Shown: in pieces, positions 5,323 through 54,833 of the stretch
How the letters are laid out: the number at the start of each line of letters is the position of its first letter
Numbering within the stretch: the first letter of the stretch is position 1
Assembly: GCA_016350165.1 (NCBI GenBank)
Contig: CP066225.1
Location: 186,001-250,000, forward strand
From: Planctomycetota bacterium
GTDB lineage: Bacteria; Planctomycetota; Phycisphaerae; Phycisphaerales; Phycisphaeraceae
Direction of reading: 5' to 3'
Length of the DNA: 64,000 bases
The notes under the pieces: model-generated
Databases searched by the model: none
What the model was told of the DNA's origin: nothing
Seen by the model: the letters and a program-made list of their open reading frames with translations, nothing else
Program-made: the position numbers and the translations under genes

Positions 5323-5547
5323 ATGACCAAACAAACCTTCATCTTCCTTTCTCTCATCGCCATTCTCTTTTGTCTCTTTGCAACCACCCTCTTCCACACC
5401 TTTATCACTCATCACCTCAACCCACTTCATCACGACCCCATCGGCGCCCTTATCGCCAACTACACCATCACCACAATCTTCTGCCTCCTTCTGATCGCCA
5501 TAACATTCTCAACTCTCTTCAACTTCTACAAAAAGCCAAACCAGTAA
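5323..5547 (+). CDS. Small hypothetical membrane protein
   Basis: A 74-residue frame that looks like a two-helix membrane protein: hydrophobic residues ~6-26 (FIFLSLIAILFCLFATTLF) and ~46-66, short polar loop with His residues, basic end FYKKPNQ. No clear ribosome-binding site precedes ATG 5323. The competing minus-strand frame 5218-5433 has poor protein character. No homology recognised; the call rests on hydrophobic patterning only and the frame could be fortuitous. Confidence 0.4.
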   Translation: MTKQTFIFLSLIAILFCLFATTLFHTFITHHLNPLHHDPIGALIANYTITTIFCLLLIAITFSTLFNFYKKPNQ

Positions 5548-5695: not shown

Positions 5696-5857
5696 TGCGC
5701 GCACAAACACGCATTTCGCCCTATTTATGCAGCATAAAACCAACCAAAACACGCCTTTTCTTAACCGTTTCTGATCGTTTTTACACCAAACCGCGCCGTT
5801 TCTGGCCATTCTTGACTAAGGGTAATTCATTAAAATGAAGAAAACGTGCGCACAAAA
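5696..5857 (+). repeat. Dispersed intergenic repeat, copy A
   Basis: Copy A of a repeat also present at 54477-54638 (same strand) and 26388-26547 (reverse). It opens with TGCGCGCACAAACACGC, contains ACCAAACCGCGCCGTTTCT (5785-5803), a CCATTCTTGACTAAGGG block (5806-5822), and closes with CGTGCGCACAAAA at 5845. Opening and closing motifs start 149 bp apart, exactly as in copy B, and CCAT lies 39 bp before the closing motif in all three copies. It occupies the gap between convergent genes (5323 frame and the MMPL transporter). No protein-coding signal was accepted here. Confidence 0.8.
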
Positions 5858-21772: not shown

Positions 21773-22656
21773 TCAAACAAAGAAAATGTTGTGAGGGATT
21801 TAGATACTTATATATGGATATGCTCAGTCACAGTAAAAAACGATTCTGCTACTCAACTACCCATCATTATCGCCGTTAAAAATATCATGCGGTACAAATG
21901 ATTAGAACAAGATAATTCGGTATTTATGCTTTTTTTTTCACTCTGCTAAATCTCAACAAAACAGATCACAGAATTACCTAAATTCCGTTCGTTTTTACCA
22001 AAAACAACCTATCACAAGCCAAATATTTTCTCTGACTTTTTCAATGCTCCTGTTCTTCTGCAACATTCCACAGTACTTTCAACCATTACAGAGCTTCATA
22101 TTCCCTCTGTTTTTCTGTAAATCACTTCGAGTCAATATCAATTCAGCATTCAAGCTATATCCATTTGGTCTTTTTTTAGCTTTTTACCAACAACCATCGC
22201 TTCATTACTTCTTCATTTCTGAATACACTTTCCGTTTGCATATGTTTTTTCACACAATTCATCTGGTAAATATCCACTTCATACACCGAAACCTTGCCTT
22301 TATCCCCACCCAAAATCTTGTTTGATCAATTTTCTGACTGAATATCAGGCTATTTTTTTTTGATTTCTCCTCATTTTCATCTTATTCCCAACTTCGAATC
22401 TTTCGTTTCTCCCTTAATCCACAACACTTACGAGCGTTTTCAACTTTGCCTCTCTTCACTCATTTCTGACTCAAACCGAACCGCTCAACACCTGTTTCAC
22501 GTATAAGTGCTTGATTTTGGTCACTTTATTGTGTTCTATGACTTTTTTACGGTTTTTTGCAGATCGATTTCGTGTATGATTTCCCGCTACCGGCTCCAGA
22601 AATGCGAGTCAATTCTGCACCTGATTGTGCATAGGTCGCTGAACTAACCCAGCGAT
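21773..22656. other. Long non-coding region upstream of the 23S-5S operon
   Basis: About 880 bp, AT-rich and, on the plus strand, strongly pyrimidine-rich. It contains a 93-codon frame (22044-22325) that lacks protein character. It presumably holds the URO-D promoter on one side and upstream rRNA promoter elements on the other. No repeat of the dispersed family was found here. Confidence 0.5.
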
Positions 22657-22940: not shown

Positions 22941-25788
<2,848 letters not shown>

Positions 25789-25951
25789 TTCCGACCAACG
25801 ATCGCTAACACGATCACTGGTCAGGATGCTAAATCTAAAAACTTCAACAGGTTCACATCCCGATACAGCACAGACCCCTAACGCCTGGGTCAGGTTCCCC
25901 CAACCCACCTGATTCAGGCACCTTTGAGAGCTTGCTCTTAAAAGAGAGTTA

Positions 25952-26128: not shown

Positions 26129-26165
26129 GAGCCTCTTAAGGTAAACCTTGAGAGGCTCTTTTTTT
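26129..26165 (+). terminator. Rho-independent terminator of the 23S-5S operon
   Basis: 13-bp stem GAGCCTCTTAAGG with CCTTGAGAGGCTC (one G-U) around TAAA, followed by seven T. Confidence 0.95.
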
Positions 26166-26387
26166 ATGCGCAATGAACACCGGCTAATACACGTAAATTG
26201 TATTAGCTATTTACGATTCATATTCATATCTTTGAGTTCACCACCCTGCCCTTGATTCGCTCAGATCATCTCTGGAACTCATCTGATTAGGCATGGTGCA
26301 TATTGATAGATTTATATATGGATGCTGTGTACAGGCGATAAAAGAGCTTGCAATGCTGATCGAATTTGCCTGTATGCGCAGCGCGTT

Positions 26388-26547
26388 TGCGCGCACGAAA
26401 TGTTATTTTTTATGGTTTTCCTGTAGCAAAGAATGGGAAGAAGCAGCGTATAACGGTTTAAAGAACGCGTGGAATGATCTAGAAATGAAAAGTAATGAAC
26501 GAAAAAAATAAGGACTTACAAACATCGGCGCAAAACGCGCGCACAAA
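26388..26547 (-). repeat. Dispersed intergenic repeat, copy C (reverse orientation)
   Basis: Read on the minus strand this matches copies A and B: opening GTGCGCGCG TTTTGCGCC, then TTCTTTAAACCGTT, CCATTCTTTGCTACAGG and a closing CGTGCGCGCAAA. The CCAT (26436 reading down) is 39 bp from the closing CGTGCGC (26397), as in the other copies, and the two palindromic motifs are 148 bp apart against 149 in A and B. The 72-codon plus-strand frame 26293-26511 and 62-codon minus frame 26403-26591 lie over it and are treated as non-coding. Confidence 0.65.
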
Positions 26548-26624: not shown

Positions 26625-28538
26625 CTATTGCTGTACAGCGAATGGGTTAGTTGGTGCTGGCGTATTCTTGGAAGCATCTTTGTCGATTTGCTCCAGTTTA
26701 CTTTTAGCTTCTTGCAATGATTTGAAATGTCCGGACTCAACCATCAGCTGCAAGACGGGCTCTAATAAATTGATTCTGTGTTGCCGCGTAGTTCCTTTAA
26801 TACGATAGAAATAGACATCTTCATATACGATTTCATCACCCATGATTTGCTTCATATGATTTTTGGAGTTTGCCGTTTCTGGCGCAGGTCGGAGGATTAT
26901 GTCACCTTGAATTTCAGTAACGTGCGGAGGTAAAACTAGACCACTTGTTCGCCAATTATGAAGTGTGCCCAGAGTACTACTGCCTGCATCCCATATCAGG
27001 TATTGATCTTGTGGGTATTCCGTATTTCCAACTCGCAAGATGATTTGATAACACATGGACCAATTGACGTCACCGAGATTAACAAAAGTTGTATACCAAT
27101 TTGCGGCATCATCACGTGATTGATAGCGCTCTGCTTCCTTTTGAGATGTTATCATTACCGCATTGAGAAGGTATTTATTTGCGGCTTTCACACTGCCGTC
27201 ATAACCCAAGCCAACTGTCATAATTCTCATGGGACTCTCAACTTCACCCTTATATCTCATCTTTACCCCTTCGGATGCATCTAATCTATAGTAAATATCA
27301 TCTACTCGTCCTCTATTTGGATTTAGCGGCATGCATGGGGTCAAAATTTTCCTGATGACATCCAATTGCGCTTTGTTATATTCTAATTTGGTAGATGTTG
27401 ATCCTTGCATCAATTCGAATGAAATTGTTTTCGTTTTTAGATTCTTGTAAGCCAGCGTTTTTCCCTTGGCCGGACTGAATTTCACATCTATTTCCAGATG
27501 CAATTGATGCTTACCAAAGGGCCTCTCTGCCATTGTCTTTTGCCAATCGATACTTGGTAATAAATAGTCTTCATACCATAGCTCACTACCATCTCTGTCT
27601 TTGAGAATTGCATCGCCGATGTATTGGTTATCGATGTAGACTGAGATGTTTTCGATCAGATTTGGAGGACCAGGCGGAGTACTGTAACCTCCCGCATTTT
27701 GATTATGATTACCTGTAACCTCATGAAAACTCTCAATCATTAAAATACTATTTGGCCAAGAATCTTGTGATATTTTTTGAGGAATACTTACACCTGCTGA
27801 CCTGACGAGTACTTGAACCCAACGTAGATATTGATCTTCGGTAAGTAGATCTTTTTTCTCTGCCAATTGTAATACAGGACCGAAGGAGTTCTTGGGGTAT
27901 GGTGCTGCTTCGGCTAATTGAAGCATTGATTCACTAGCATTAGCGATCCATTCCATATCCATCACATCTTTAGTGATCAACTCTCTGAAGTTTCGGCCGC
28001 AGGAATCCCAAACATCTTGATCTCCTCTAATCAGCGCATTGAAGAGTAGATCGATTTGCCATGCGATTTGCTTATTGTTGAGCTTGATGTTTGTGTTACG
28101 GAGATTAACTTCTTCATTCGCTGCAATGATGTCGATATTTGAAGGAGAATATTTCACTTCAGCTTTGAGCAAGGTATTTGGCTTCCACCAATTCCATGTG
28201 TAACTACTCCATCTTCGAGAGATATCGATACTTAAAAGAACGGTGGCAATGAAGGTAACTAAAATTGCAGTGGTACTCAGTAAAATCGTCAAGTCGTGAT
28301 GGTGCCGCACACGTTGGCCAAAACGAATGCTCTTTGGTTTTTGTAATTCGTTACCACACTCGGAGCAGACTTTATTTTCACGATTTTCTTGCTTGGTTAT
28401 ATCAACGTTCATACCAATCAAATCGTAACCGCAATTACGACAGAATGGATGGTTATTGATACGTTTGCCTCGCCATGCCGAGATGACGAAGATTGATCCT
28501 ATCACTGTAAAAAGCCCCAGAATTAATACAAGGATCAT
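26625..28538 (-). CDS. Large zinc-ribbon membrane protein, unknown function
   Basis: Unrecognised 637-residue protein. N-terminal TM (residues 1-20), then a zinc ribbon: CRNCGYDL at ~33 and CSECGNEL at ~57, a second TM (~84-105), and a large presumably exported domain of about 530 residues with no motif I recognise, ending in an Ala/Pro/Thr-rich tail. Ribbon plus TM is a planctomycete-type architecture also seen in the smaller 4691-5221 protein. GGAG lies eight bases before ATG 28538. It is convergent with the 5S terminator region and next to a beta-lactamase-fold hydrolase gene on the same strand (103-bp gap). No function assigned. Confidence 0.85.
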   Translation of the reverse strand: MILVLILGLFTVIGSIFVISAWRGKRINNHPFCRNCGYDLIGMNVDITKQENRENKVCSECGNELQKPKSIRFGQRVRHHHDLTILLSTTAILVTFIATVLLSIDISRRWSSYTWNWWKPNTLLKAEVKYSPSNIDIIAANEEVNLRNTNIKLNNKQIAWQIDLLFNALIRGDQDVWDSCGRNFRELITKDVMDMEWIANASESMLQLAEAAPYPKNSFGPVLQLAEKKDLLTEDQYLRWVQVLVRSAGVSIPQKISQDSWPNSILMIESFHEVTGNHNQNAGGYSTPPGPPNLIENISVYIDNQYIGDAILKDRDGSELWYEDYLLPSIDWQKTMAERPFGKHQLHLEIDVKFSPAKGKTLAYKNLKTKTISFELMQGSTSTKLEYNKAQLDVIRKILTPCMPLNPNRGRVDDIYYRLDASEGVKMRYKGEVESPMRIMTVGLGYDGSVKAANKYLLNAVMITSQKEAERYQSRDDAANWYTTFVNLGDVNWSMCYQIILRVGNTEYPQDQYLIWDAGSSTLGTLHNWRTSGLVLPPHVTEIQGDIILRPAPETANSKNHMKQIMGDEIVYEDVYFYRIKGTTRQHRINLLEPVLQLMVESGHFKSLQEAKSKLEQIDKDASKNTPAPTNPFAVQQ

Positions 28539-29922: not shown

Positions 29923-31437
<1,515 letters not shown>

Positions 31438-54476: not shown

Positions 54477-54638
54477 TGTGCGCACAAACACGCATTTCCT
54501 CTCTAATAGCGTGTAATTCTTCAACTATTTCAGACCATTTCTATACCAAACCGCGCCATTTCTAATACGTTTCTGTCTATTTCTGCCCATCTTTGACTCA
54601 GGGTAAATCATCAAATCAAACAAAACGTGCGCACAAAA
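54477..54638 (+). repeat. Dispersed intergenic repeat, copy B
   Basis: Opens TGTGCGCACAAACACGCATT, contains ATACCAAACCGCGCCATTTC (54543), CCATCTTTGACTCAGGG (54587) and closes CGTGCGCACAAAA (54626). Opening-to-closing distance is 149, as in copy A; CCAT-to-closing is 39, as in A and C. Internally, A and B differ by a 21-bp shift that cancels out, so the unit length is held constant. Confidence 0.85.
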
Positions 54639-54799
54639 TCGCTTCACCAAGCCACAGAACCTAACCAATCTTTCGCTTTTCGTAAATTAACAAAACCAAA
54701 CCGACGTATTCCGTCCGTTTCATATAAACCACCTCAAATAAAACGCCTCTTTTTAAGACCATCTCAAACACGCAAATTGAAATTTCCGTGCGCGCAAAA
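54639..54799 (+). repeat. Possible tandem, diverged unit following copy B
   Basis: A third palindromic motif CGTGCGCGCAAAA starts at 54787, 161 bp after the closing motif of copy B. The interval contains AAAACCAAACCGACGTATTC and AAAACGCCTCTTTTTAAGACC, which resemble internal blocks of copy A (ACCAAACCGCGCC; AAAACACGCCTTTTCTTAACC). So it may be a partly degenerate repeat unit. Confidence 0.5.
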
Positions 54800-54833
54800 C
54801 CAACAACCATCCATCTCACATGCACATACAAAC

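Follow-up and report, generated by a model that had tools for sequence, protein, structure and literature searches.

What kind of element recurs at three places within 64 kb of a planctomycete chromosome, each time between genes and each time with palindromic ends at nearly the same distance? The stretch analysed here (the window, 64,000 nucleotides in length) comprises bases 186001-250000 of the single 5,234,020-bp contig of Poriferisphaera heterotrophicis ZRK32 (Phycisphaerales; genome G000). An initial annotation had proposed a repeat family, read either as a protein-binding array or structured element, or as a mobile element. On balance, we favour a geometry-constrained intergenic DNA-shape element, in which two or three palindromic sites, presumably for a protein, lie on DNA predicted to curve, which would loop or wrap and probably have a role in DNA topology.

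Three copies in the window

Site 1 lies on the plus strand and consists of an opening palindrome (P1, 5697..5704; GCGCGCAC, then AAA), a 149-bp unit of the type that we call A, whose body (5705..5845) carries phased A/T tracts at about 5726-5800, and a closing palindrome (P2, 5846..5853; GTGCGCAC, then AAAA). Site 2, also on the plus strand, has an opening palindrome (P1, 54478..54485; GTGCGCAC), an A-unit body (54486..54626) with phased tracts at about 54507-54581, and a second palindrome (P2, 54627..54634; GTGCGCAC); beyond the coordinates originally given for it, a third palindrome follows 161 bp further on (P3, 54788..54795; GTGCGCGC). The interval between P2 and P3 (54635..54787) is a C unit, one of nine, with an R2 match at 54667-54801 (E=1.2e-6). 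Site 3 lies on the minus strand, with an opening palindrome at 26537..26544 (GTGCGCGC on the element strand), a divergent A-like body at 26397..26536 that holds the CCATTC...GGAAAACCAT block, and a closing palindrome at 26389..26396 (GTGCGCGC, then AAA).

The spacings first reported for these sites are correct: 149 bp (5697->5846), 149 bp (54478->54627) and 148 bp (26544->26396, minus strand). The CCAT block does keep the same distance to the closing palindrome in all three, starting 40 bp before it (39 by the earlier count). The description of a palindrome followed by AAA at both ends fits sites 1 and 2 and fails at site 3, where the opening palindrome has the reverse orientation to that in the other copies; it reads TTTGTGCGCGC on the element strand, and the AAA, on the opposite strand, therefore falls outside the unit. 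In the window as a whole, GTGCGCACAAA with up to one mismatch occurs nine times, against a mean of 1.69 in shuffled sequence, and no shuffle reached nine. A profile of the A unit (R1), built from 38 copies that include sites 1 and 2 and leave out site 3, matches all three, with E-values of 3.2e-30 for site 1, 4.8e-33 for site 2 and 1.9e-14 for the divergent site 3 (26383-26514, minus strand).

A family of discretely spaced units

The elements are dispersed well beyond the window. A paired pattern, GYGCGCRCAAA-N127-157-GYGCGCRCAAA, has 72 matches in ZRK32 and none when reversed as a control, and BLAST with a single copy as query returned 70 places at E<=10, of which about 30 reach about E<=1e-4. 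The suggestion of a repeat family of this lineage is thus borne out, with far more than three copies and many significant matches in the genome; the two outcomes named in advance as counting against it, a lack of further significant copies and a likeness no better than in shuffled intergenic DNA, are both contradicted. The distances between palindromes are mostly discrete, at 149 (33 cases), 150 (20), 161 (9), 158-159 (6) and 226 bp (3). By spacing and block content we sort the units into types A (46), B (16) and C (9), although model match and tree position place three of the 46 A entries (2887530, 4629753 and 4795448) with the B units, so that the averages given below for A units are slightly diluted. 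Arrays run A-B or A-C, with three palindromes each. Profile models gave at least 24 A-model and at least 28 B-model matches in ZRK32, and at least 25 and at least 9, respectively, in its genus neighbour P. corsica (strain KS4, 4,291,168 bp; G001), all of these being lower bounds because only the best candidates per genome were scored.

Some elements depart from these types. In three of them, which we call D-type (L123, L125 and L164, at positions 1171614, 1321473 and 3904045 of G000), the palindromes are 226 bp apart. B units (for example L149:4188-4355, minus strand) carry on their opposite strand a conserved AAGGAG/AAGGAC-TT-ATG block, which resembles a ribosome site and start codon, but is too tightly spaced for one.

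Dispersed copies are also what the main rival to a DNA-shape element would produce, namely a selfish, non-autonomous mobile element (MITE- or REP-like) spreading through intergenic DNA, with the palindromes as transposase sites and the curvature aiding synapsis of the ends. We consider this reading unlikely overall, if the most serious of the alternatives. Terminal inverted repeats were not recognised in the copies read, the ends being the same palindrome in direct order, and a search for Y1 transposases found one frameshifted, IS200-like copy only. That gene (L202, G000:C1:680223-680581; IS200-like by reading) is the only PF01797 match in the genome, with a D-like palindrome element some 0.6 kb downstream of it.

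Phased A/T tracts and predicted curvature

Eight A/T tracts with a period of 10.4 bp run through the basic 149-bp unit, and their phase is constant relative to the palindrome. In a set of 29 A units, all 149 bp long, maxima of A/T occupancy recur every ~10.4 bp between +28 and +102, the individual peaks falling at +28, 39, 50, 60, 71, 81, 92 and 102 in ZRK32 and at similar positions in P. corsica. At periods of 10-11.2 bp, A bodies have a spectral power of 4.75, compared with 1.73 for shuffled sequence, 2.04 for intergenic DNA elsewhere and 1.51 for coding sequence. The tracts interchange A and T, pairwise identity being 0.66 in the W/S alphabet vs 0.45 in letters; TpA steps are depleted (3.6 vs 7.8) and A-tracts more frequent (6.3 vs 2.6).

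Phasing of this kind predicts curvature. In a simple AA-wedge model, which places a wedge on AA/TT steps only and uses assumed parameters, A units are predicted to bend by 82 degrees over 120 bp, C units by 68 and B units by 38; the corresponding values are 30 for shuffled A units, 33 for intergenic DNA elsewhere and 26 for coding sequence. Sites 1 and 2 are predicted to bend by 114 and 100 degrees, values that none of 1000 shuffles reached in either case; neither site 3 (32 degrees) nor the C unit at site 2 stands out from its shuffles, site 3 having no predicted curvature, and none is predicted for the B unit. The proposal of a protein-binding array or structured element fits best when structure is taken as DNA shape, in the phased tracts, predicted curvature and fixed spacing; the protein-binding half of it is a plausible reading of the palindromes.

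A unit of 148-149 bp with a 10.4-bp A/T periodicity also resembles nucleosome-positioning DNA, which raises the question of a wrapping site for a histone-like protein. Six-frame searches with PF00808 found nothing in ZRK32, P. corsica or two further carriers (G039 and G053, see below) and did recover the archaeal controls; across these four carrier and four other genomes there were no histone-fold proteins. We consider a histone-like nucleosome very improbable.

Conservation of length and position in P. corsica

In P. corsica there are at least 25 such units, 148 bp being the commonest length. For 21 of 32 P. corsica elements, the orthologue of a flanking gene has a ZRK32 element no more than 4 kb away; since the ZRK32 DNA searched is 14% of the genome, chance would account for at most 4-5 of the 32. 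This positional conservation counts against a mobile element. Other observations in the same comparison favour mobility: at one locus an element is present in P. corsica and absent from the matching ZRK32 gap, which contains other repeats, and a tree of copies clusters by species, with 11 label changes vs 20.7 when labels are shuffled. No clean empty site, from which target-site duplications might be read, turned up in the comparison.

Most readable orthologous pairs agree in length to within 1-2 bp (148 vs 149), as determined with a one-mismatch palindrome finder that gave no reading at six P. corsica loci. The measured pairs that differ by more than 2 bp do so by about one helical turn (148 vs 158, 159 and 159). 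One D-type pair measures 225 bp in P. corsica and 226 bp in ZRK32, and a 148-bp pair is present at the P. corsica locus too. Within ZRK32, a subtype of the A unit lacks an 11-bp module in mid-unit and has about 10 bp extra beside the second palindrome, which offsets the loss and keeps the unit at 149-150 bp. The compensating shift that had been described between blocks of the window copies is therefore right in kind, the offset being that of this 11-bp module.

The letters themselves are less well kept. Four orthologous A units were compared; three resembled their counterparts no more than they did paralogues, and the fourth was the best ZRK32 match. Copies at orthologous positions that mostly resemble each other no more than paralogues do would suit neutral debris, that is, old duplicated intergenic DNA drifting without function, as would the existence of copies such as window site 3 for which no curvature is predicted. 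We think this improbable, given that spacing and tract register survive the change of letters, even in another family (see below). The same retention of spacing and register among diverged copies also speaks against a mobile element.

The same geometry in another family

Three phased CAAAAC tracts were sought in 251 genomes of the order and found in ZRK32, P. corsica, G039 (same family) and G053, a metagenome-assembled genome of 120 contigs from another family of the order; a further match, in G025, was rejected as a simple repeat. The pattern was picked after the elements had been seen, so that it maps such tracts and not the frequency of the wider architecture with tracts of other letters. 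The matches read in G053 and G039 lie inside palindrome-flanked phased-tract elements. In G053 the palindromes are exactly 148 bp apart in nine of nine canonical copies, and the tract peaks, at +29, 40, 51, 61, 71, 82, 92 and 102, are within 1 bp of those in ZRK32. The tract profiles of the two genomes correlate at 0.52-0.61 in register and at about -0.4 when offset by half a turn, although the letters of the bodies are only 35-39% identical in register (22-28% out of phase). The predicted bend of the G053 and G039 elements is 120 degrees vs 26-30 for shuffles. Four further G053 copies and those of G039 have other spacings or flanks, the nearest-palindrome spacings in G039 being 135 and 155. 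The combination in G053 of the same geometry with almost unrelated letters suggests that it is shape, and not sequence, that is kept.

The distribution is patchy, with phased tracts in only two genomes outside the genus among the 251 of the order, which counts against an essential function and is in keeping with a mobile element spreading across families. Searches of phage and plasmid records found no match to the element, a result that weighs on the other side. No match was found in the other planctomycetes sampled. A pattern scan of genome contigs returned four scattered records that look like chance, the near relatives perhaps lying outside the set, and a scan of the phylum for phased CAAAAC triplets returned six genomes outside the order, mostly simple tandem repeats by their matched letters. 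Pattern matches in G071 were treated as chance, the matched letters being unphased; G075 has a weak profile-model match.

Position relative to genes

Of 81 motif clusters, 78 lie outside called genes, while ~74% of the DNA in the stretches examined was called coding by a simple codon-score gene caller of our own. The three window sites are indeed all intergenic, as first noted, but of the two said to lie between convergent genes only site 3 clearly does so: it is flanked by the 5S rRNA terminator (26129-26158) and a minus-strand gene at 26625. Site 2 sits between two minus-strand genes, and site 1 is in a convergent gap only if a 74-aa ORF at 5323-5547 is real. Overall, a convergent arrangement is modestly over-represented among gaps with an element (18 of 51, while long gaps give 50 of 229; Fisher p=0.012). 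Transcription of the gene beside the closing end runs toward the element in 29 of 51 cases in ZRK32, 23 of 31 in P. corsica and 6 of 9 in G053, and in 15 of 19 ZRK32 elements with a B unit by hand count.

Site 3 had suggested a link to rRNA operons, which we rejected because the second ZRK32 operon and the operons of P. corsica and G039 are without an element. The 16S/23S rRNA genes of the window (22942-25789, 29929-31437) are unlinked and on opposite strands, and the A-unit model has weak matches (E 0.05-0.9) at window 22186-22504, upstream of the 23S rRNA gene.

The proximity of gene 3' ends would also be expected of an element acting at the RNA level, such as a terminator region, a Rho utilisation site or a small RNA read from one strand. 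One strand of the element is C-rich and G-poor, with CC every ~10-11 nt, and close to some copies the palindrome recurs in inverted orientation, both of which would suit such a role. The gene that ends beside the closing palindrome, however, reads the G-rich strand, and the interchange of A and T in the tracts preserves DNA shape and no RNA motif. An Rfam search of the window gave only rRNA and tRNA at the gathering threshold, with no family at the sites, and a permissive search of a 1.3-kb element piece gave only archaeal C/D-box snoRNA families, below threshold. An RNA-level element thus seems to us a poor prospect.

Relationship to known repeats

We found no published description of the element in a limited open-access search, which is weak evidence of novelty. 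In kind, the present elements resemble the REP and BIME-2 sequences of E. coli, to which they are unrelated: both are mosaics with palindromes, scattered between genes and often close to gene ends. REP palindromes are stem-loops of 20-40 bp, many with a GTAG or CGTC tag (PMC3733652), whereas the palindrome here is 8 bp long and untagged, in a unit of 148-150 bp whose spacing and phased tracts are conserved. No RAYT (Y1) transposase was found in ZRK32 apart from the frameshifted Y1 gene mentioned above. The dRS3/RS units of Neisseria are arrays in which short inverted repeats punctuate longer repeat units. By description they can be set beside our element, with its short palindromes between longer units; the palindrome is a different one, and we know of no phased-tract geometry in RS units. 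A further comparison is with the BOX elements of pneumococci (PMC3049150). BOX elements are modular interspersed repeats assembled from distinct sub-units. Our element is likewise modular and interspersed, but in another host, and it is the palindrome spacing and predicted curvature that set its modules apart. The strong gyrase site (SGS) of phage Mu is gyrase-binding DNA with bendable arms, a likeness that extends to our element only insofar as its putative gyrase binding is real; the SGS is one site, cleaved at its centre, whereas here the tracts cross the centre, palindromes bracket the unit and there are tens of copies.

Other repeats occur near the elements. A second repeat, ACGAYACGYTNNAGTGNAACA, has 191 matches in ZRK32 at up to one mismatch vs none for the control, in steps of about 46-55 bp; it lies upstream of elements such as L172 (G000:4348000-4356000), occurs in P. 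corsica as well, and was not found within the window. Downstream of 30 of 175 ACGAYACGYTNNAGTGNAACA copies examined are REP-like hairpins, which lie upstream of some elements. Their stems are interchangeable (CGCCGATC, GGCGAGC, CCGCGG and others, with CCCCGCACC in P. corsica), appear by eye to covary, and are often preceded by ATAG or GTAG.

A model for the element

Copy number, spacing, tract register, positional conservation and a geometry kept with little sequence, together with the predicted curvature, are the features that any explanation has to accommodate. In the DNA-shape explanation that we prefer, each GTGCGCAC-type palindrome would presumably be the site of one homodimeric protein, and curved DNA would hold the palindromes 148-150 bp apart, or sometimes about one helical turn more. 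The curvature may bring the palindromes together, or let the DNA wrap round the protein, and the result would be a compact nucleoprotein loop between genes, whose closing end would more often than not face the 3' end of a neighbouring gene. Its likeliest role would be in local topology or nucleoid organisation, comparable to that of the BIME-2 elements of E. coli, which are bound and cleaved by gyrase (PMC6379681).

DNA gyrase itself is one candidate among several for the putative binder. It is attractive because the E. coli gyrase motif has a phased ~10-bp variation in G/C content over ~130 bp and gyrase cleavage sites are enriched in BIME-2 (PMC6379681). The element differs from a site of this BIME-2 type in that its 10.4-bp phased W tracts, from +28 to +102, run continuously through mid-unit, without the break that the E. 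coli motif has at the cleavage site.

More tentatively, these repeats may represent a geometry-defined class of chromosomal element, whose register is kept across families while its letters turn over, and which would dock a putative architectural protein or topoisomerase. If so, what selection preserves across family-level distances would be the shape of an intergenic element, even as its letters change; and since ordinary homology searches largely miss elements kept by shape, more of them may exist. It would also open the question of whether phased curved DNA recruits a topoisomerase or a nucleoid protein, for which two cultured and completely sequenced species, P. heterotrophicis and P. corsica, would provide a natural system in which to study curved DNA at gene ends.
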